From Prosopocoilus inquinatus (taxonomy: Eukaryota > Arthropoda > Insecta > Coleoptera > Lucanidae), in NCBI GenBank assembly GCA_036172665.1, contig CM069870.1, forward strand, positions 20,558,001 through 20,622,000: DNA of 64,000 nt, read 5' to 3'. The position numbers and the translations under genes were made by a program. Below, piece by piece: positions 1 to 56,236 of this stretch; the stretch's first letter is position 1; the number at the start of each line of letters is the position of its first letter. The notes below the pieces were generated by a model that ran no database searches, was not told the origin of the DNA, and saw nothing but the letters and a program-made list of their open reading frames with translations.

Positions 1-1329
1 TTATGCTGGGGCCACATCTGTGTCTAATGACTCTTAACGTCATCTTTGACCTTTCACTTGGACATTGGAGTGTGGCCACAGATTAAAGTACTATTTTTTT
101 AACGGAATTATGAAAGACCGGGGCATTAGGCGATAGATAAGGCAGCATGTCAAAGATATTTACGTTCGATTAACTTAATTTTCTTTTTTTTATTTCGATA
201 AAAATTTACCCCAATAACTTCTTCCCCTCCTTAACTCTTTATATCGGGCACATATATGTACATACAAAGTTGAATGAACGTCCTTTTCCATTGTTGAAGG
301 AATCAATAAATATTTGGCATCACACAATACTTTTTTTCCACTCGGATACATAAAAAGAAATAATAAGAAAATTGTGCGATTGCGTCAAAAGCAAATTAAT
401 TTGATTGGTCGTGTATATTCGTAAATGCGTTGGTTTATTTACTTACGTTCTCTCTAGCTGATTGTTTGCTGCATTACGGCTCGAAATAATAGAAAATAAA
501 TATTATTTGTAGCGACAAATTAATCAAATGAGCGCGCTAAATAAATAAATAGACAACATATGCCATACACAGACAACATCTGCATTATGAACACTATTTA
601 ATCTGTTTTACGAGAAAAGAAAAACTATTGGAATTTACACATAATGACGCACGTTTTTAAAATATACTGACCTGTTACTGTCAGAGAAATACGTTTGCTA
701 GCTTCCTTTTCATAAGATAAACAGACCTATACATTATATTAAAAAAGAAAAGATCGGACTAATTCATTTATAAATAATTTTGATTGTTTAAGTTTTCCCT
801 ATTTATCAAGTTATTTAAAAAAACAAAAACATCTGCGCTGTGTACAATTTTTTTTTAATGAAATTTAGTTCTTCATCGACCTTTGAATAATACAGCGAAT
901 ATCTCCTACCAGTTTATTACAATTACGATACCTGGTGGCAGGATGTGCTGCGAAGTCACCCAGCTGTCCCGAGCTAGTCTCTGAAGGAGGAGGTTATGGG
1001 TAGAAACAGTTACAGGCGCCAGGGAGTAACCCCCGCTGAAATGCGCACTGTGGAACCGACTCCCAAGGATCCACTGCAGCAAAACACCACAACGTACTTA
1101 ATAATACACATATTTAGACACACGAAATCGTGGTACAGCAAACTGTTAGCCTTAAGGGCTAGACATAACCTAAATAATAAACAAAGAAAAAAGTTATTTA
1201 AAGTTAGCAACAATTGCATCCTTTCCACTTTTTGAAAAGCCTTCATAGTTGTATTTTGAGAAAATGTTCCCAGTTTGAGATTTTGCTTTTGTCAGGAAAC
1301 AAACAAGAAAAATTGACTGAATAAATTAA

Positions 1330-7425: not shown

Positions 7426-7589
7426 TATTTTTTTTCCCCTAAGAAATCCATAACAGTTGCTTTTTTCGTCAATAATTACTTTTAGTTACTTTTTATTTTC
7501 CACATTGGTAACATTAATACACTGCTTGCCATTTAGTGATTGTTATTGGTTCTGGTGATTTTCTTTTCAAATTTCAAACAAGTTCAGAC

Positions 7590-8115
7590 ATGTCGTCGAA
7601 AATCTAGTGTATCGGCTAATATGAGACGTTGACTTTCAATTGTTTTTTTTTTATTATCTTTAGATATTTTATTTTTATTTCTTTTATTCTAACTCGAGTT
7701 GGGTTGACCTTATTTGTACTACATGCGGGCTGGATATAATTTGAATTGAAATCAATTGAATCAACCTTAAATTAGATTGAGTTTAATTTTAATTAATTTT
7801 TTGAGTTTTAATTTTTTTTAATTTTAATCCTGAGTTTTAATTTTTAATTCAATTCAATTAAAAATTAAAACTCAGGATTAAAATTAAAAAAATTAAAACT
7901 CAAAAAATTAATTAAAATTGAACTCAATCTAATTTAAAGTTGATCCAATTGATTTCAATTCAAATTATATCCAGCCCGCATGTAGTACAAATAAGGTCAA
8001 CCCAACTCGAGTTAGAATAAAAGAAATAAAAATAAAATATCTAAAGATAATAAAAAAAAAAACAATTGAAAGTCAACGTCTCATATTAGCCGATACACTA
8101 GATTTTCGACGACAT
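7590..8115. repeat. Long palindrome with 260-bp arms
   Basis: Left arm 7590-7849 and right arm 7856-8115 are near-perfect reverse complements with only a few mismatches, separated by a 6-bp loop. The left arm is the 5' part of a segment that occurs again in direct orientation from about 8298. The right arm therefore looks like a fold-back copy made by template switching, not the arm of a conventional transposon. No target duplication seen. An assembly artefact should be excluded. Confidence 0.85.
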
Positions 8116-8131
8116 CTCTGTTTAATCCTGA

Positions 8132-11725: not shown

Positions 11726-13438
11726 TAATAAATAATATATACCGGGTGTTTCAAGATTGGCGGCGACAGGCGGTATATAGTTAACCGTAATACCTACAGC
11801 TTCGGGAGAAAAAAAATTATAGTTAAAGTGACCAAGACAAATTCAAAGAAAATATTTTTAAGTATCTGAGTTGACCGCAAGGGAGCACAATCAATAGGGC
11901 TATAAATAAAAATCAATTTTATTAGCAAAAGTCTCAAAATAAGTTACAGCTTTGATAGCGTCATTAAAAAGCTCAATTAATTCTGCACAACTTTCATTTT
12001 AGACTTGTTATCGTATTACCGTTAATAAGGGTGGAGGAAACAGTTGAATTATTTACTTTAAAAAATACCATAACTTCGGTACTCTTTGTCAGAAATTAAT
12101 GAGTTTCGGCTCATTTGAAAGGGAATTTTAAGCTGATTTAAAGTTTCTATTCAACGACTACGGCTAATTTGTTATAAAGTGGCTAGAGGGCGCCATTTAC
12201 GAAAGCAATAGTTTTTCACGGTTTTCCAAAAAGGATTAAATGGAAAGGTGTGTTTCTTTTGCAACAGTTGCAAAGCCCATAAAATTGAGAAAGTTCAAAC
12301 AAGTGCTATCGAGTAACACTTTTAATTTTAAGGTTAAATAATGCCTATAAAAGTTTTTATTAATGTTAGGACATTATTTAGAAGCATTTAATTGTTAATA
12401 ATAATAACAATTAAGTTTCACTGTGCCGCTGTACAATACTTTTTTTAATGTCCGCTTAGAGTTGTGTAGAAATTATTATTGATATCCTTACGGATAGTAA
12501 ACGGCTATTTCGAAATGAAAGATGGATAATATTTTGAAAACATTTTAGGTGCAGACCTTCAATCATTGTTGATTACAATATGTTTCATAATTGCTCAAAG
12601 TACTTTCCGTCATTTAAAATTTTAATGTTCGTTACTTTCATTTAGTGCCTGTGTTTTTCTCATTTATATGTTTGCTTGCTGTATTGTTCTTTTATTTAAG
12701 TATTAGGCTCTCAAAAACAACGTAGTGCATTTAAAATAGATTAATGTCTTTCTATTTACCTCAAAATGAAAAGTTCACTCGATGGAATTTGTTTGAGCTT
12801 ATAGATTCGGTTTTATATTTAGTTAATAGACTCATTTGGTAATAACTCGAGAACGAAAAAAGTTAGCAATGTCGGGTTTTCACCAAAATGTTCTCCTGAT
12901 TGAATTATTTGTAATCACTGTAAAAGAAATACCCCTTTTCATTTAAATTTTTTTTGGGAAACTGAGAAGAACTATCACTTTTGCAAATAACGCCCTCTAA
13001 CTAGTTTATAACAAAGTAGCCGGAGTCGTTCAATAGAAACTTTAAATCAGCATAAAATTCCCTTCCAAGCGAGCCGAAGTTCGTTAATTTCTGATAAAGA
13101 GGACAGAAGTTATGATATTTTTTAAGTAAATAATTCAACTGTTTTTTCCACCCTTATTAACGGTGATACGATAATAAGTCTAAAATGAAAGGTGTGCAAA
13201 ATGAATTCAGCTTTCTAATGGCGACTGCACCTTATTCTGAGACTTTTGCTAGTAAAATTCATTTTTATTGTTGAGTCTATTGATTGCGCCCTCTTGCGAC
13301 CAACTCAGATACTTATATTTTCATTGAATTTCTCTTTACCACTTTACAATAATTTTTTTTCTCCTGAAGCTGTAGGTATTACGGTGAGCTGTATATCGTC
13401 CGGTCGCCGCCCATCCTGAGACACTCGGTATAATAAAT
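11726..13438. mobile_element. Foldback/TIR element with arms of about 0.5 kb
   Basis: The outer ends ATACCGGGTGTTTCAAGATT (left) and the complement of a CACTCGGTAT end (right) begin inverted arms of roughly 500 bp (about 11740-12250 and 12930-13430). They share blocks such as CGTAATACCTACAGCTTC and TTCAACTGTTT. The internal 0.7 kb has no coding sequence, so it is non-autonomous. TAATAAAT flanks both sides (11726-11733, 13431-13438), a possible 8-bp target duplication, though the left flank leaves a few AT bases unexplained. Superfamily not assigned. Confidence 0.75.
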
Positions 13439-17820: not shown

Positions 17821-18185
17821 AAATTAAACGTAAAACTAAAATAGTAAAGGAGACTGTGGTTTAAGAGATAATTGAAATTAACCTCCGCCCACAATAATTT
17901 TTATATCCGTAGATCCGTATATCGGCAGCATTGCTGGCATCTTCAGTACGCTACCAATTTAAAAGCACTAAAAAAATGTCTAAAAAGAACCTAATCACAC
18001 TGAAAAAATCATAAAAATGTTAAACCTTTTTATGATTTTGTCAGTGTGATTAGGTTGTTTTTAGACATTTTTTAGTGCTTTTAAGTTGGTAGCGTACTGA
18101 ATATGCCATCAATGCTGCCGAAATACGTATCTACGGATATAAAAATTATTGTGGGCGGAGGTTAATTTCAATTAAATTAAACGTA
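17821..18185. mobile_element. Palindromic element with hammerhead-like arms, copy 1
   Basis: A 12-bp exact duplication AAATTAAACGTA (17821-17832, 18174-18185) flanks two inverted arms meeting near 18015. Read outward, each arm carries GGTAGCGTACTGAA, a helix-II-like hairpin, a GAAA-type block and TACGTATCTACGG. The left arm reads CTGAAGA but GATA in place of GAAA; the right reads CTGAATA then GAAA. The left arm extends further (to CTATTTTAGTTT, read outward) than the right (to TTTCAATT). The same family is at 46721-47081. Both ribozyme-like cores are damaged here. Confidence 0.8.
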
Positions 18186-19875: not shown

Positions 19876-20074
19876 TTTTAAATTTTTGATGAACATATAA
19901 AATAGCGACATCTTACTATCGCTTTTTGACCTAACATTGCAGTAGGATAGACAAATTGAAGCGGGATTTGCTCCTAATGAGTCCCCCATGCAAGGCGGCC
20001 ATGCTTGCTGTCAAAGCATAATGAAAGATTTTAGAAAATTTTTGTGCAAATCGTTTTTGATTGCAGTGAGAACC

Positions 20075-20139
20075 TCGAGCAGCCTCTGGACAGCTGTTTC
20101 AGCCCTGCTTGGGGCTTCTTCAGCAGAAACGTAGCTCGA
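20075..20139 (-). ncRNA. Hammerhead ribozyme A (type I)
   Basis: Read on the minus strand: core CTGAAGA, helix II AGCCC/GGGCT closed by CAAGCA, then GAAA. Helix III is four base pairs without a loop (ACAG/CTGT), followed by C17. Helix I has proximal pairs CTG/CAG and a distal helix TCGAGC/GCTCGA. Predicted cleavage falls between 20088 and 20089. All invariant core positions of the hammerhead consensus are present. The very short helix III often means activity is best as a dimer, which fits the tandem arrangement. Confidence 0.85.
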
Positions 20140-20386
20140 CATTCCCACTGCAGACCAAAAACGACTTGCCCAATTTATTCGCAAATGCGATGTAAGAATG
20201 ATGAACATATAAAATAGCGACATCTTACTATCGCTTTTTGACCTAACATTGCAGTAGGATAGACAAATTGAAGCGGGATTTGCTCCTAATGAGTCCCCCA
20301 TGCAAGGCGGCCATGCTTGCTGTCAAAGCATAATGAAAGATTTTAGAAAATTTTTGTGCAAATCGTTTTTGATTGCAGTGAGAACC

Positions 20387-20451
20387 TCGAGCAGCCTCTG
20401 GACAGCTGTTTCAGCCCTGCTTGGGGCTTCTTCAGCAGAAACGTAGCTCGA
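20387..20451 (-). ncRNA. Hammerhead ribozyme B (type I)
   Basis: Same sequence as ribozyme A, in the neighbouring minus-strand unit, with the predicted cleavage between 20400 and 20401, exactly 312 bp from A. Core, helix II, helix III and distal helix I are all intact. The unit is cut off just beyond it at about 20486 by the head-to-head junction. Confidence 0.85.
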
Positions 20452-20651
20452 CATTCCCACTGCAGACCAAAAACGACTTGCCCAATTGCATGGGGGACTC
20501 ATTAGGAGCAAATCCCGCTTCAATTTGTCTATCCTACTGCAATGTTAGGTCAAAAAGCGATAGTAAGATGTCGCTATTTTATATGTTCATCATTCTTACA
20601 TCGCATTTGCGAATAAATTGGGCAAGTCGTTTTTGGTCTGCAGTGGGAATG

Positions 20652-20716
20652 TCGAGCTACGTTTCTGCTGAAGAAGCCCCAAGCAGGGCTGAAACAGCTG
20701 TCCAGAGGCTGCTCGA
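20652..20716 (+). ncRNA. Hammerhead ribozyme C (type I)
   Basis: Plus strand: CTGAAGA 20668-20674, helix II 20675-20690, GAAA from 20691, helix III 20694-20701, C17 at 20702. Distal helix I pairs TCGAGC (20652-20657) with GCTCGA (20711-20716). Beyond it TGCAGTG pairs with CACTGCA and CGTTTTTG with CAAAAACG, giving a long rod. Confidence 0.88.
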
Positions 20717-20963
20717 GGTTCTCACTGCAATCAAAAACGATTTGCACAAAAATTTTCTAAAATCTTTCATTATGCTTTGACAGCAAGCATGGCCGCCTTG
20801 CATGGGGGACTCATTAGGAGCAAATCCCGCTTCAATTTGTCTATCCTACTGCAATGTTAGGTCAAAAAGCGATAGTAAGATGTCGCTATTTTATATGTTC
20901 ATCATTCTTACATCGCATTTGCGAATAAATTGGGCAAGTCGTTTTTGGTCTGCAGTGGGAATG

Positions 20964-21028
20964 TCGAGCTACGTTTCTGCTGAAGAAGCCCCAAGCAGGG
21001 CTGAAACAGCTGTCCAGAGGCTGCTCGA
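20964..21028 (+). ncRNA. Hammerhead ribozyme D (type I)
   Basis: Second plus-strand unit: CTGAAGA starts at 20980, GAAA at 21003, predicted cleavage after C21014, 312 bp from C. Sequence identical to C across the ribozyme. The element ends about 50 bp further on. Confidence 0.88.
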
Positions 21029-21080
21029 GGTTCTCACTGCAATCAAAAACGATTTGCACAAAATTTTTTTAAATTTTTGA

Positions 21081-24733: not shown

Positions 24734-26212
24734 TGTACAGAGTGGACCATTTTTGATGGTCTTGCAGGGTTTCTCAGTTATTTATAGAAGTAGAAGAAAA
24801 TCGTTTTCGCGACCCAATGCTACTTTCTCGAGAAAAACACAGTGGGGAAAACAAAAGTTAGCTACCTCGATTCATTCGGGAAATATCGGTCGAAAACGAA
24901 TTTTTCCGAAAAATTATTTTGCACAATATCTCAGTTGTTTGACAACATAATTTGAAAATTCAAAAACTATTTTATTCAGAAATTAATGTAGATTTAACCA
25001 ACGTTATTATCTTTTGCTGGAACTGCACCAGTTCTGCGAAACAGACTATAACTTCGTGGTTTTCAATAAAAACCGCAGTTGGCTAAATAAATAGTTTGTT
25101 TAATGAGGTTTTCAAAAATATAAAGTTTGATATAATTATTTTTTTTAATAACAGAGATACTAACTTTTATTACTTTGCAGTAGCTATCAAGATATTTATG
25201 ACACTAGAAACAAAGGAAAATTCAGTTGTTTTCCTCAAAAATCCATTCTTAGAATAAATAATACAGGTAATTAAATTTAAAAAAATAAATAAATAACTGG
25301 AAATACATAATGCTTTTAGAGAACTCATTAAACTACTATTATTATCAATGCAGTTTTGAAGAATTATATGTTACATGCTCCTTTGAAATTATTAAATCTT
25401 AAATTTTGAATTATCAAAAATGCTTAGATGTGTTTATTTCACTTTTACCCGTGATTAAATTTGTTAACATATAAAAGTTCTTGAAAGCATTTTTAAACTT
25501 AAGAAATATCTGATACTTCAATAATTTCTTAAAGAAACACACTAATTAATACAATTTAAAATATATAAAAATCTGTTAGCTGTTCAAATGGATTTAATTC
25601 ATTTTTACATATTTGTGGTTTTATATCAGTATCTAATAGATACATGAAGCTATTTATTTATTGAATTAAGTTAGGTTTTACTTAATAATAATTCACTTTT
25701 TGTGGAAAAAAACTGAACTCATTTTTTGTTTTTGTTGCCATGGGTGACTTGTTAGCTACCGAAAACAAAAAATAATTAGTAGCTTTATTTTTTGTAAAAA
25801 TAATTATATCAAACTTTATATTTTTGAAAACCTCATTAAACAAGCCATTTATTTGTGTCATAACCAACTGCGGTTCCAATTTAAAATTAGAAAGTTATAA
25901 TCTGTTTCGCAGAACTGATGCAATTTCTACAAAAGGTAATAATGTCAGTGAAATCTGCGTTAATTGCTGAATAAAATGGTTTTTTAATTTTCAAAATATC
26001 TTGTCAAACAACTGAGATATTGTGAAAAATAATTTTTCGGAAAAATTCGTTTTCGGCCGATATTTCCCGAACGAATCGAGATAGTTAACTTTAGTTTTCT
26101 CCACTGAGTTTTTCTCGAAAAAGTAGCATTGGGTCGCGAAAACAGTTTTGTTCTGTTCCTATAAACAACTGAGAAACCCTGCAAAACCATCAAAAAAGGT
26201 CCACTCTGTACA
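24734..26212. mobile_element. Foldback element with arms of about 420 bp
   Basis: Outer ends TGTACAGAGTGGACCATTTT (24734) and its complement (ending 26212) open inverted arms reaching to about 25150 and 25795. Shared blocks include CGACCCAATGCTAC and CCGAAAAATTATTTT. The roughly 0.65-kb interior has no coding sequence. The matching short open frames in both arms (24723-24950 plus, 25984-26217 minus) are the same DNA read twice and are not evidence of a gene. I could not find a clear target duplication. Confidence 0.75.
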
Positions 26213-28520: not shown

Positions 28521-28637
28521 CTAAAACGGAATATTGTAAGTGTCGGCTGCAGACAGACTGCTGTACTCGTGTATTCGAACAATAAATTTAATAAAAAAAT
28601 TTTTTTGTGCAAATCGTCTTTGATTGCAGTGAGAACC

Positions 28638-28702
28638 TCGAGCAGCCTCTGGACAGCTGTTTCAGCCCTGCTTGGGGCTTCTTCAGCAGAAACGTAGCTC
28701 GA
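28638..28702 (-). ncRNA. Hammerhead ribozyme E (type I)
   Basis: Minus strand: CTGAAGA, helix II AGCCC/GGGCT, GAAA, loopless helix III and C17 all intact. Distal helix I TCGAGC/GCTCGA present. Predicted cleavage between 28651 and 28652. The unit differs from the 20-kb copies by a few substitutions outside the ribozyme. Confidence 0.85.
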
Positions 28703-28950
28703 CATTCCCACCGCAGACCAAAAACGACTTGCCCAATTTATTCGCAAATGCGATGTAAGAATGATGAACATATAAAATAGCGACATCTTACTATCGCTTT
28801 TTGACCTAACATTGCAGTAGGATAGACAAATTGAAGCGGTATTTGCTCCTAATAAATCCCCCATGTAAGGCGGCCATGCTTGCTGTCAAAGCATAATGAA
28901 AGATTTTAGAAAAATTTTTGTGCAAATCGTTTTTGATTGCAGTGAGAACC

Positions 28951-29008
28951 TCGAGCAGCCTCTGGACAGCTGTTTCAGCCCTGCTTGGGGCTTCTTCAGC
29001 AGAAACGT
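28951..29008 (-). ncRNA. Truncated hammerhead ribozyme F
   Basis: Minus strand core CTGAAGA, helices II and III and C17 are present (cleavage would fall between 28964 and 28965). The 5' strand of distal helix I is lost at the inversion junction near 29008. Proximal pairing CTG/CAG remains. Confidence 0.7.
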
Positions 29009-29022
29009 CTGCGGTGGGAATG

Positions 29023-29087
29023 TCGAGCTACGTTTCTGCTGAAGAAGCCCCAAGCAGGGCTGAAACAGCTGTCCAGAGGCTGCTCGA
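29023..29087 (+). ncRNA. Hammerhead ribozyme G (type I)
   Basis: Plus strand: CTGAAGA 29039-29045, GAAA from 29062, cleavage predicted after C29073, helix I TCGAGC/GCTCGA (29023-29028, 29082-29087). Core complete. Only 14 bp separate it from the inversion point with ribozyme F, so F and G together form a long palindrome. Confidence 0.85.
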
Positions 29088-29394
29088 GGTTCTCACTGCA
29101 ATCAAAAACGATTTGCACAAAAAATTTTCTAAAATCTTTCATTATGCTTTGACAGCAAGCATGGCCGCCTTGCATGGGGGACTCATTAGGAGCAAATCCC
29201 GCTTCAATTTGTCTATCCTACTGCAATGTTAGGTCAAAAAGCGATAGTAAGATGTCGCTATTTTATATGTAAATAAATTTAATATTATCATTGCTCCAAA
29301 ACTGCCAATTCGAAGAACAACGTCACCTTTCACCGGTTGCCTACAGGCATCAAGTTATTTCTCTAAAAATATTTACGAATGACTCTGTTAAAAT

Positions 29395-33535: not shown

Positions 33536-34990
33536 TTAGAAAGCTAAGCTGATACTCTCACAAGTTAAGAACAGTTCCTAGAATCATTGGTTTCTATGAA
33601 CCGAAACATATTTTCTTCGCCAAATCTGGACTGGAAATCCTTTGCTATTATTACTTCAGCAAAATGCATCAAGTCTCTATGTTACGTTAAGTGTATGATC
33701 AGTATTGATAGAATTTATTTTTATTCTTAAGTCTTATTTCATCTTGTTCTTTAATTAATTTATTATTATTATTTAAATACATAGATATAACTAAAAAAAT
33801 CAATTGCCTTTGATTAAAACATAATATATAAATAATTATTTAAAATTATTTAAAACCACCTTGTTTGTAAATTTTATTTCAACAGGATTAATATTTTTCA
33901 AAGTACTTTTTATTTTAGAATTTTAATTTAGTTTTTTGTGATTTTTTTTATTCACTTGGTTTGAGTTCACTTACGTTCAATTCCAGTTGCATGGAATTCA
34001 CTTAGCCTCTCTGCAATTGGATTAGGTTGACCTTGAACTGCTTTTTAATTTTGAAAACGAAAATTAAAAGTGTGTATTTATTGCTACAAACCGCGTGTAG
34101 AAGCAAGATTTGTGCTGAGAAAATTGACTTACTTAACTTACTGTACTTACAGTACAGTCAGCAGCTTCAGTCGTGAAGGGTGCGGGTGTTAACTAAACGC
34201 GACAATAAAGAAAAAAGAAATGACTCACTTTATACAACAATCAAGCATGTCAACAATCATAGTGCGTGCGCATCCTTAATATCACCCTAATATGTGCGCA
34301 TCTTAAAATTGTTCACGTTATTAAAACCATGTAAGTAAAAGCAAAAATGTTTGCAAATCTGACACCTTCAAAGGACTTCAACAAATGGCGGATAGGTCAC
34401 TTGCTTTACAGACAAAATAGACACATAATATTTTAAATTTTAAAATGTATTTCACTTGGCATGAAGCGTCCAAGGACAACATTGTGAAACTCTAATACAG
34501 TCGTCGGGGTAAGGGCATAGCGCTCCCGAAGGTAAGGTTTGCGCGAATCGGAAACACTGTGACATCAATACGAACCAACCGCATGTATAATGACATAAAG
34601 AAGGCCCCTATAGCGTTAAAGGTCGAATGTGAGCGCAATTTAATCTCTTGGTCATTTTCTTAAAATTTTTATTTTTTTAAGTTTTGGACAGTTTTTTTTG
34701 TTTGATTCTTTCTTATTCTCTTCTTTGTTTGGATTCACATTTAAATTTTTTATTTTTGTTTTGCAGGAAAGGTTTGCGCAAATCGGAAATACCGTGATAT
34801 TATTAGGAAACAACCGCGTGTATGATGACATAAAGAAGGCCCGATAGCGTTAATGGTCGAGTGTGAACGCAATTTAATATCTTCGTAATTTTCTTGAAAT
34901 TTTTAATTTTTTAAGTTTGGGACAGTTTTTTTGTTTGATTTTTGTTATTCTCTTCTTGGTTTGGGTTCACATTAAAATTTTTTATTTTTG
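33536..34990 (+). repeat. 1.4-kb dispersed repeat, copy 1
   Basis: Collinear with 54908-56236: shared blocks include GCTGATACTCTCACAAGTTA, CGCCAAATCTGGACTGGAAA, GACCGCGTGTAGAAGCAAGA-like and AATCGGAAACACTGTGACAT. Each copy has an internal tandem duplication of about 235 bp marked by AAAGGTTTGCGCRAATCGGA and GGACAGTTTTTTTTGTTTGA. This copy holds about 100 bp (near 34400-34510) missing from the other. The other carries extra sequence near 55030-55150. No coding sequence or terminal repeat found; a long noncoding retroelement or decayed transposon is possible. Confidence 0.8.
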
Positions 34991-40825: not shown

Positions 40826-41088
40826 GCTTTTACTTACTATATTTTAGAAAAATTTTGTGCAAATCGTTTTTGATTGCAGTGAGAACCTCGAGCAGCCTCT
40901 GGACAGCTGTTTCAGCCCTGCTTGGGGCTTCTTCAGCAGAAATCTTTCATTATGCTTTGACAGCAAGCATGGCCGCCTTGCATGGGGGACTCATTAGGAG
41001 CAAATCCCGCTTCAATTTGTCTATCCTACTGCAATGTTAGGTCAAAAAGCGATAGTAAGATGTCGCTATTTTATATGCTTTTACTTAC
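40826..41088. mobile_element. Retrozyme-like element, short inverted copy
   Basis: Exact 12-bp duplication GCTTTTACTTAC at 40826-40837 and 41077-41088. The minus-strand arm (about 40838-40941) runs from the ribozyme region outward to GCACAAAATTTTTCTAAAAT. The plus-strand arm (about 40942-41076) starts at ATCTTTCATTATGC and ends at GTCGCTATTTTATAT. Together they make up less than one 312-bp unit, joined head-to-head with part of helix I deleted. The outer ends match those of the longer copies. Confidence 0.85.
40888..40941 (-). ncRNA. Truncated hammerhead ribozyme H
   Basis: Minus strand core CTGAAGA (plus positions 40930-40936), helices II and III and C17 (complement of 40902) are intact. 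The 5' strand of distal helix I is missing at the inversion junction, leaving only proximal CTG/CAG pairs. Cleavage would fall between 40901 and 40902. Confidence 0.7.
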
Positions 41089-46620: not shown

Positions 46621-46770
46621 CGCGCTCACCTCCAGTCTTCCTGTTTACAAATTGTTCCTTGCGTTTAATACTTAATTTCAGCTCTCGAAATTATTTATTA
46701 TCAAAACAATGATAGTTACATTCAATTTACTATAATTGAAATTAACCTCCGCCCACAATAATTTCTATAT

Positions 46771-46814
46771 CCGTAGATACGTATTTCGGCAGCTAAGCTG
46801 CCATCTTCAGTACG
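46771..46814 (-). ncRNA. Hammerhead-like motif with one extra base after A9
   Basis: Minus strand: CTGAAGA, an extra T, then helix II GGCAGC/GCTGCC with a TTA loop, GAAA, a four-pair loopless helix III (ATAC/GTAT), and C17. Proximal helix I is CGTA/TACG. All invariant residues are present, but the extra base between A9 and helix II is not part of the standard core, so activity is uncertain. It has the same short helix III as the 312-bp family. Confidence 0.6.
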
Positions 46815-46955
46815 CTACCAACTTAAAAGCACTAAGAAAGATTTAAAAACTACCTAATCACACTGATAAAATCATAAAAATATTGAAGCTTTTTATGATT
46901 TTATCAGTGTGATTAGGTAATTTTTAAATCTTTCTTAGTGCTTTTAAGTTGGTAG

Positions 46956-46999
46956 CGTACTGAATATGGCAGCTTAGCTGCCGAAATACGTATCTACGG
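46956..46999 (+). ncRNA. Decayed hammerhead-like motif (right arm)
   Basis: Same structure as the left arm, but the core reads CTGAATA: the invariant G8 is replaced by T, which should abolish catalysis. GAAA (46983-46986), helix III and C46994 are intact. The right arm of copy 1 has the same CTGAATA change. Confidence 0.55.
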
Positions 47000-47081
47000 A
47001 TATAAAAATTATTGTGGGCGGAGGTTAATTTCAATTATCTCTTAAACCACAGTCTCCTTTACTATTTTAGTTCAATTTACT

Positions 47082-48660: not shown

Positions 48661-48667
48661 TAGATAT

Positions 48668-48857
48668 TTATAAACTTTAAGTGGTGAATAGATAAAACAG
48701 CGACATCCTACGATCGCTTTTTGACCTGACATTATAGTTTTTGGTTTGCAGTGAGAATTTCGAGCGCCTCTGCTGACGAAGCCCCAAGCAGGGCTGAAAC
48801 AGCTGTACAGAGGCTGCTCGAGGTTTTCACTGCAAAAAAAATTTTATAAATATTAAG
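48668..48857. mobile_element. Diverged retrozyme-like element
   Basis: A short minus-strand arm (about 48682-48737) resembling the AAAATAGCGACATCTTAC segment is joined to a plus-strand arm holding a full ribozyme and ending GCAAAAAAAATTTT. Flanks TTATAAACTTTAAG (48668-48681) and TTATAAATATTAAG (48844-48857) match at 12 of 14 positions, a plausible aged target duplication. Sequence differs from the other copies by many substitutions, so it is older or from a sister subfamily. Confidence 0.75.
48760..48821 (+). ncRNA. Hammerhead ribozyme I, fully paired helix I
   Basis: CTGACGA (48773-48779), helix II AGCCC/GGGCT, GAAA from 48796, helix III ACAG/CTGT, and A at position 17 (48807), still a permitted H17. 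Helix I is GCCTCTG/CAGAGGC plus TCGAGC/GCTCGA with a single bulged T, so it lacks the open internal loop of the other copies. The compensated pairing in helix I despite divergence supports a real RNA structure. Confidence 0.82.
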
Positions 48858-54907: not shown

Positions 54908-56236
54908 AGCTAAGCTGATACTCTCACAAGTTAAGAAGAGTCCATGAAATCTTTGATTTTTGTGAACCAAAACATATTCTCTTCGCCAAATCTGGACTGG
55001 AAATCTTTTGCTATTATTACTTCAGCAAAATGTAATGTGTTCTCGTTCGCCTACTCGTAACAGTGTTCAGATTTGCCACTGCCTGCCAATTGCAAATTAT
55101 GCGAGGCACAAGGGCGCCTGGTCAGAGGGCTGCCCAATTGTGTGCAATATAGGTGCGCCATCATCAAGTCTTTATGTTACGGTAAGTGTACGATGTGTAT
55201 TGATAGAATTTATTTTTATTCTTAAGTCTTATTTCGCCTTGTTCTTTAATTAATTAATTATTTAAATACATAGATATAATTAAAAAAATAAATTGCCTTT
55301 GATTAAAACATAATATATAAATAATTATTTAAAATTATTTAAAACCACCTTGTTTGTAATCTTCATTTCAACAGGATTAATATTTTTCAAAGTACTTTTT
55401 ATTTTAGAATTTTAATTTAATTTTTTGTGATTTTTTTTATTCACTTGGTTTGAGTTCACTTACGTCCAATTCGGTTGGAAAGTTAATTAAAAGTGTGTAT
55501 TTATTGCTACAGACCGCGTGTAGAAGCAAGATTTGTGCTGAGAAAATTGACTTACTTAACTTACTGTACTTAGAGTATAGTCAGCAGCTTCAGTCGTGAA
55601 GGGAGCGGGTGTTAACTAAACGCTACAATAAAGAAAAGAGAAATGACTCACTTTCTGCAACAATCAAGCATGTCAACAATCATAGTGCGTGCGCATCCTT
55701 AATATCACCCTAATATGTGCGCATCTTAAAATTGTTCACGTTATTAAAACCATGTAAGTAAAAGCAAAAATGTTTGCAAATCTGACACCTTCAAAGGACT
55801 TCAGCAAATGGCGAATAGGTCACTGGGCATAGCGCTCCCGAAGGTAAGGTTTGCGCGAATCGGAAACACTGTGACATCAATACGAACCAACCGCCTGTAT
55901 GAACATAAAAAAGGCCCCTATAGCGTTAAAGGTCGAATGTGAGCGCAATTTAATCTCTTGGTCATTTTCTTGAAATTTTTATTTTTTTAAGTTTTGGACA
56001 GTTTTTTTTGTTTGATTCTTTCTTATTCTCTTCTTAGTTTGGATTCACATTTAAATTTTTTATTTTTGTTTTGCAGGAAAGGTTTGCGCAAATCGGAAAC
56101 ACCGTGACATCATTAGGAACCAACCGCGTGTATGATGACATAAAGAAGGCCCGATAGCGTTAATGGTCGAGTGTGAACGCAATTTAATCTCTTCGTAATT
56201 TTCTTGAAATTTTTTATTTTTTAAGTTTTGGACAGC
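54908..56236 (+). repeat. 1.4-kb dispersed repeat, copy 2
   Basis: Collinear with 33536-34990, including the internal duplication of about 235 bp. It ends abruptly at TTTTGGACAG (56236), where the sequence joins the GGTCCGAAAG segment. An additional segment (about 55030-55150) is absent from copy 1. The open frame 55008-55253 lies mainly in that extra segment and shows no domain. Confidence 0.8.

Follow-up and report, generated by a model that had tools for sequence, protein, structure and literature searches.

Head-to-head inserts of a 312-nt hammerhead ribozyme element in Prosopocoilus inquinatus, probably mobilised by Penelope-like enzymes

The 64,000-nt stretch of Prosopocoilus inquinatus DNA analysed here (the window; contig CM069870.1, positions 20,558,001 to 20,622,000) contains, at 19876-21080, a block built from a 312-nt hammerhead ribozyme element with a GC content of 43%. 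A preliminary description had presented this block as four units in two head-to-tail pairs, joined head-to-head within an exact 14-bp repeat in an insect genome. The direct repeat TTTTAAATTTTTGA can indeed be read exactly at 19876-19889 and 21067-21080, and the two halves of the block are inverted copies of one another, complementary at 99% over 463 nt and at 100% over 419 nt. Each half also repeats itself at a spacing of 312 nt, at 100% over 289 nt on the left and at 99% over 281 nt on the right. The insect host is borne out by 127 scored matches in the assembly to the odorant receptor family PF02949, which we take to be insect-specific. The count of four holds for the ribozymes, which are all complete, and not for the units: the block consists of two incomplete arms of 1.93 and about 1.86 units.

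We number the unit in its sense direction, position 1 being the base 3' of the predicted ribozyme cut. In these terms the left arm of the block, hereafter insert 1, reads as a cDNA of 601 nt that ran from about 202 back past the cut twice to 226, and the right arm, which measures about 581 nt if taken to end at the duplication (BLAST extends it to 21085), as one that ran from about 53 back past the cut twice to 96. Predicted cut sites lie 312 nt apart in each arm (20089 and 20401 on the minus strand, 20702 and 21014 on the plus strand), and two cut sites per arm would permit release of monomers; inserts 3 and 4, described below, have one hammerhead each. No long terminal repeat (LTR) was seen around the block, and its longest frame (20382-20780) has no Pfam match. 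Because that frame matches neither a reverse transcriptase (RT) nor a GIY-YIG endonuclease, the block, judged by its coding content, is not itself an autonomous Penelope-like element (PLE).

Each hammerhead of insert 1 comprises CUGAAGA, a five-pair helix II, GAAA, ACAGCUGU, C17 and an extended helix I. Helix III, previously called loopless, is better drawn with two base pairs and a palindromic tetraloop, AGCU (together ACAGCUGU); the AGCU loop could also pair between two molecules. A descriptor (CTGANGA, helix II, GAAA, short helix III, H17, helix I) found nine hammerheads in the window, all within copies of the family, and a single match in 100 dinucleotide-shuffled windows. Seven hammerhead loci from other parts of the genome, among them L003 and L008, relatives of the 312-nt unit at about 85%, were made into a covariance model, which recovered all nine again at E <= 2e-15; no other match was better than E = 0.42. 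By both measures the four hammerheads of insert 1 are complete and of type I, as first proposed. The source loci are seven of the eight matches to RF00163 elsewhere in the assembly, seven of which lie above its cut-off; the eighth locus is a near-identical copy.

Across ten hammerheads from several subfamilies, pairing occupies 75.5% of cells, against 32-44% with slid partners, and 11 of 29 pairs have changed on both sides, a value reached by 28 of 500 shuffles; the number of further pair types in these ten is not above shuffles (324/500). Five of the ten open helix II with an A-U pair and three with a G-C pair, the other two being unpaired there, while distal helix I is paired in just 53% of cells and so is not general. 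The hammerhead of insert 4 deviates at N7 and at position 17, both of which the motif allows. The whole 312-nt unit folds with a z of -8.57, and none of 100 shuffles folds as well. Searches of viral and genomic contig collections with exact core patterns gave no match, and low-threshold Rfam matches to MIR169 and to snoRNA were read as palindrome effects or chance. Two observations concern the related loci. One relative above the Rfam cut-off (L003:1501-1546) has G at position 17 and is presumably inactive. Further hammerhead families of the genome (L001, L002, L004, L005 and L007) share a conserved stretch, CAATC.AAACT.A.TTGCA, just 3' of helix I; it lies close to site A of the 312-nt family, defined next, and is a possible RT recognition element.

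Comparing the window with itself revealed three further inserts (28602-29270, 40841-41077 and 48682-48841), all head-to-head, whose outer ends lie close to the same pair of RNA positions as those of insert 1. These are site A, mostly at +50 to +61 from the ribozyme cut, and site B, mostly at +195 to +204. In a first test of this clustering, with the A end of insert 4 taken as 42 (BLAST 34) and the right end of insert 1 as 53 (BLAST 72), the distances summed to 35, whereas the smallest sum among 300 uniform sets was 98. Target duplications of inserts 1-3 are 12-14 bp long.

A sample of 288 kb of the same genome contains 37 family groups, delimited by BLAST. This sample combines 200 kb of chromosome C1, picked blind at round coordinates, three regions close to previous matches and the 64-kb window; L009-L011 were picked because copies had already been seen there. 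In an assembly of 650 Mb the C1 part is one stretch and not a census; it contains 24 groups, covering 6.4% of its bases, and 43 hammerhead matches at E <= 0.1. Twenty-three of the 37 groups are two-armed, one is composite and 13 are in one orientation. All 23 two-armed groups are head-to-head, antisense then sense along the chromosome, and their outer ends are coupled: 19 are A/B, two A/A, none B/B and two unclear (P = 9.5e-5 for at least 19 of 21 A/B were arms to choose independently; the count omits the composite and the one-orientation groups). Within the 19 A/B inserts, 13 A ends lie at 50-61 (the others at 34-72) and 17 B ends at 195-204 (the others at 189 and 210). Target duplications score above 95% of the null in 15 of the 23, all of them A/B, and above 99% in 12. 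The blind C1 stretch alone gives 10 A/B inserts among 13 two-armed ones, with one A/A and two unclear.

The remaining groups are more varied. Seven of the 13 one-orientation groups have their start end at 196-204 (B) and one at 52 (A); B may complete insertion alone, or a short A arm may escape detection. The composite (C1:30124850-30126501, L024; C1 124850-126501 in short form) is a retrozyme in ten alternating pieces, perhaps several inserts or the product of repeated template switching.

The inner ends behave differently from the outer ones. The 46 inner ends of the 23 two-piece inserts are scattered round the unit, with no pile-up at the ribozyme cut (two lie within 10 nt of it), and arms extend past the cut. 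On a cleaved monomer, A arms should end by about 61 nt and B arms by about 200 nt, whereas arms of 600 nt exist; in one insert (C1 123003) the A arm does end at position 1. Paired arms have unrelated inner ends in most inserts (for example 226/96, 272/58 and 151/239). Because the inner ends scatter and the arms run beyond the cut, the templates were mostly circles or uncleaved multimers rather than cleaved monomers.

Where the two arms meet, they overlap by at least 2 nt in 11 of 23 inserts (17% expected) and by at least 5 nt in five (0.8% expected); ten junctions have gaps instead. Start sites were analysed in ten inserts, drawn from the 12 whose duplications are clearest; the other two, C1 48542 and 55500, were set aside because the copies of their duplications are imperfect. 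The resulting 20 arm starts show a mean microhomology of 1.7 nt against 0.32 expected; seven are templated directly from the duplication and, under a strict exact-match measure, 13 have extra bases or A/T-run differences. In the predicted fold, sites A and B both belong to loops that are AT-rich and mostly unpaired. A candidate start-specific base change (A5T4 vs A4T5) turned out to be ordinary source variation.

The genome contains, in addition, a PLE that was amplified recently. In a GIY-YIG search of the assembly 150 of 2232 candidates were scored, with an identical 33.4 bits for about 130; the matching open frames reach 788 codons and often lie side by side in minus-then-plus order, and one frame contains both RVT_1 (2.6e-14) and GIY-YIG (2.9e-7). 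A solved-structure search with the PLE protein returned no match. We examined ten PLE end pairs (four whole inserts and six end pairs), taken where endonuclease matches lay close together or a whole insert was in hand, and dropped none of them; in all ten, one arm has a tail of about 42 nt and the other has none, and a flank of 11-14 bp is common to both sides. Two palindromes in the window (17834-18181 and 46726-47072), each with a 35-nt tail on one side only, an 11-12 bp duplication and a minimal hammerhead, have the look of solo terminal-repeat pairs from another Penelope family. With these two, 12 of 12 Penelope pairs from two families are head-to-head, have a tail on one arm only and share an 11-14 bp flank, similar in size to the 12-14 bp duplications of retrozyme inserts 1-3. 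In both window pairs the right arm reads CTGAATA, a damaged hammerhead core, and the left arm keeps CTGAAGA.

Start sites measured from each element's own predicted hammerhead cut are at +49-53 and +89-95 in PLE1, at +48-49 and +83 in the window pairs and at roughly +86 and +147 in PLE2 (three loci). The first start site is similar in PLE1, in the window pairs and in the retrozyme (about +50-61).

Known systems match this picture in different parts. Metazoan non-LTR retrozymes, reported in insects among others (Cervera and de la Pena 2020, PMC7229834), are described there with a type I hammerhead, a unit of 170-400 nt, GC below 50%, duplications of more than 4 bp, a highly self-paired RNA and a helix III of two pairs plus a tetraloop, as found here. 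In that account their copies are head-to-tail tandems, in contrast to our head-to-head inserts with two fixed outer ends, and their RNA forms were demonstrated, whereas those of the 312-nt element are predicted; the words 'inverted' and 'head-to-head' do not occur in its main text. Rotifer Penelopes with inverted pLTRs (PMC3846280) share the head-to-head inverted ends, with 8-10 bp duplications in the examples seen and an optional tail on one inverted end; unlike the 312-nt element they encode RT and endonuclease, and their palindromes were read as self-priming on an antisense template. The Dolichopoda repeat pDo500 is likewise an insect repeat with a hammerhead, described as satellite DNA (PMC2837043), whereas the 312-nt family consists of dispersed inserts with target duplications.

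A biochemical parallel is the Anolis PLE PAc, whose protein is reported to cut and extend both strands of AT-rich DNA from two internal starts (PMC11167929). The two systems share two internal RT starts downstream of a hammerhead, AT-rich targets and a predicted dimer; PAc, unlike the 312-nt element, encodes its protein, and its start sites are 30-40 nt apart rather than about 140 nt. The published figures place its cut 26 nt and its starts 111-118 nt into the open reading frame, hence by subtraction at +85-92 from the cut, with the tail between the two starts. The available text of that study makes no mention of circular RNA or retrozymes.

The anatomy, the A and B ends with their one-of-each pairing, the duplications and the same scar in resident PLE inserts can all be read in the genomic copies. 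We consider it likely that the 312-nt element is a non-autonomous insect retrozyme of the non-LTR kind and that PLE enzymes mobilise it in trans; the proposal of a retrozyme-like insertion by reverse transcription had already been made for insert 1, and its target duplication and type I hammerheads agree with it. Transcripts of the arms would be cut at successive hammerheads into 312-nt units and ligated into circles. A PLE endonuclease and RT, probably acting as a dimer, would cut an AT-rich site with a stagger of about 12-14 bp, and both DNA 3' ends would be extended on the ribozyme RNA, one from site A and the other from site B. Both cDNAs would pass the ribozyme cut site, often over more than one round of RNA, before their free ends were joined, often through short microhomology, to leave a head-to-head insert within a target duplication. 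RNA cleavage, circularity, the enzyme, its dimeric action and the use of one circle are what we infer from the inserts. It is a serious possibility, though one that we stop short of favouring, that a Penelope RT dimer works on a single closed ring of ribozyme RNA and copies it from both sides simultaneously; the two broken DNA ends would then sit at separate start sites, one at A and one at B, each in one of the two single-stranded loops of the ring. If true, arms of several units would be restored by such two-headed rolling-circle target-primed reverse transcription each time an insert forms, and circular RNA would enter the genome by a distinct route.

Judged by its copies, the element has the tested features of metazoan non-LTR retrozymes yet inserts like a Penelope element. 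The 2020 study named long interspersed nuclear elements (LINEs) or PLEs as possible mobilisers of animal retrozymes, with PLEs a strong candidate (PMC7229834), and a 2024 review again gives LINEs or PLEs; the scar common to the retrozyme and the resident Penelopes turns that conjecture into a testable mechanism. Templates that were mostly not cleaved monomers are genomic support for circular (or multimeric) RNA as a transposition intermediate. As each insert records where reverse transcription started and ended, one assembly offers many natural experiments on Penelope integration, itself poorly understood. Among the titles listed for the openly licensed literature searched, none is on head-to-head retrozyme inserts, which is not proof of novelty.

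Several observations weigh against mobilisation by PLE enzymes or against parts of the mechanism. The A window (34-72) and B window (180-212) were fixed only after the first copies had been seen, and the two A/A inserts have no significant duplication. PLE1, the one element compared, has no significant sequence similarity to the unit (307 of 500 shuffles score as high); a PLE1-retrozyme match spotted by eye, TCGAGG..TTCTCACT, was likewise not significant. The A-to-B distance of about 140 nt exceeds any tail seen (35, 42 and about 60 nt), and arms within an insert differ by 2.0%, against 2.8% between inserts, in a test for one shared RNA. As reported for the lizard element, the start site is alike on both strands and ribozyme activity is not needed in vitro (PMC11167929). 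On the ribozyme itself the covariance-model check named in the preliminary description was split: the genome-built model succeeded, whereas Rfam at gathering thresholds found nothing in the window, and the only hammerhead among the matches listed for the block at low threshold was HH9, with 14.5 bits against a cut-off of 52.

Among other routes to such inserts, twin priming by LINE-type machinery would start one cDNA at the RNA 3' end and prime a second internally on the other strand, producing an inverted 5' piece. Both outer ends here are internal to the unit, neither being the ribozyme 3' end or a poly(A), and 19 of 21 inserts have one end of each kind; the tail on one arm only in 12 of 12 PLE inserts fits a Penelope mechanism better. 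We therefore regard twin priming as unlikely, even though this mechanism (PMC2837659), too, yields head-to-head inserts, target duplications and microhomology. Self-priming, in which the first cDNA folds back and copies itself, would also give inverted arms and was proposed for rotifer Penelope palindromes on an antisense template (PMC3846280); it predicts identical outer ends and matching inner ends, whereas the outer ends differ in 19 of 21 inserts and the inner ends of paired arms are mostly unrelated. Because the outer ends are not identical, self-priming is a poor fit and very unlikely, while two-strand extension from two start sites fits.

Mechanisms that dispense with reverse transcription fare worse. 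Long inverted repeats of a DNA transposon or fold-back element would explain the palindromic form and the target duplications, and other inverted-repeat elements occur in the window, but the outer ends are two different sequences rather than inverted copies, and interior length, junction and duplication length vary by copy; we give this reading almost no credence. Near-perfect inverted arms, as seen here, are also a known form of fold-back chimeric reads. That the inserts are assembly artefacts of this kind is nevertheless extremely improbable, since target duplications lie outside many of them, each has a different junction, old copies have decayed and the outer ends are coupled yet different. 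Hammerhead satellites are known in cave crickets (PMC2837043), which lends some plausibility to recombination of a satellite-type repeat as the way in which the family spread; this is nevertheless highly improbable, given that the 288 kb contain short, dispersed inserts that have target duplications and fixed outer ends, and that no long head-to-tail array was met there (longest arm about 1.2 kb). Insertion of a retrozyme by PLE enzymes is therefore the reading that we retain, and Table 1 gives the coordinates of its inserts in the window together with the two Penelope pairs.

Table 1. Retrozyme inserts and Penelope terminal-repeat pairs in the window
Feature	Position	Strand	Remarks
Insert 1, left target duplication TTTTAAATTTTTGA	19876..19889	.	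duplication score above 99% null
Insert 1, right target duplication, 14 bp	21067..21080	.	duplication score above 99% null
Insert 1, left arm, 601 nt	19887..20487	-	site B start (BLAST 202; 199 after duplication)
Insert 1, right arm, ~581 nt	20486..21066	+	site A start (about 49-53)
Insert 1, head-to-head junction	20486..20487	.	arms overlap 2 nt
Insert 1, hammerhead 1	20081..20131	-	predicted C17 20089; covariance model 60.4 bits
Insert 1, hammerhead 2	20393..20443	-	predicted C17 20401; covariance model 60.4 bits
Insert 1, hammerhead 3	20660..20710	+	predicted C17 20702; covariance model 60.4 bits
Insert 1, hammerhead 4	20972..21022	+	predicted C17 21014; covariance model 60.4 bits
Insert 2	28581..29284		13-bp duplication AATAAATTTAATA at 28581-28593 and 29272-29284; three hammerheads
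Insert 2, left arm	28602-29008	-	A start
Insert 2, right arm	29007-29270	+	B start
Insert 3	40826..41088		12-bp duplication GCTTTTACTTAC at 40826-40837 and 41077-41088; one hammerhead
Insert 3, left arm	40841-40942	-	A start
Insert 3, right arm	40940-41077	+	B start
Insert 4	48667..48857		older, 86-88% identity; one hammerhead
Insert 4, duplication	48667-48681 and 48843-48857		13/15 matching; above 95% null only
Insert 4, left arm	48682-48733	-	B start
Insert 4, right arm	48737-48841	+	A start
Penelope terminal-repeat pair, head-to-head	17821..18185		tail left only; 12-bp duplication AAATTAAACGTA
Penelope terminal-repeat pair, head-to-head	46721..47081		tail right only; 11-bp duplication TTCAATTTACT

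A Pfam search of ten open reading frames of the window gave no match above cut-off. Other repeats in the window include a 538-nt near-perfect palindrome (97%) at 7585-8120, around which a quick scan showed no clear flanking duplication, and inverted-repeat pairs of about 530-570 nt at 82% identity (11738-13432 and 24734-26212) that resemble DNA transposon ends. One repeated block, 85-97% identical, occupies two places (33667-34925 and 55162-56235). Elsewhere in the assembly, the loci L005 and L006, at about 39.9 and 48.4 Mb of chromosome C5, share 3,046 nt at 99.97% identity, and odorant-receptor matches near 31.6-31.8 and 40.9-41.1 Mb of the same chromosome are also repeated, with equal E-values; the cause is either duplication of a large segment or a haplotype left uncollapsed in the assembly.
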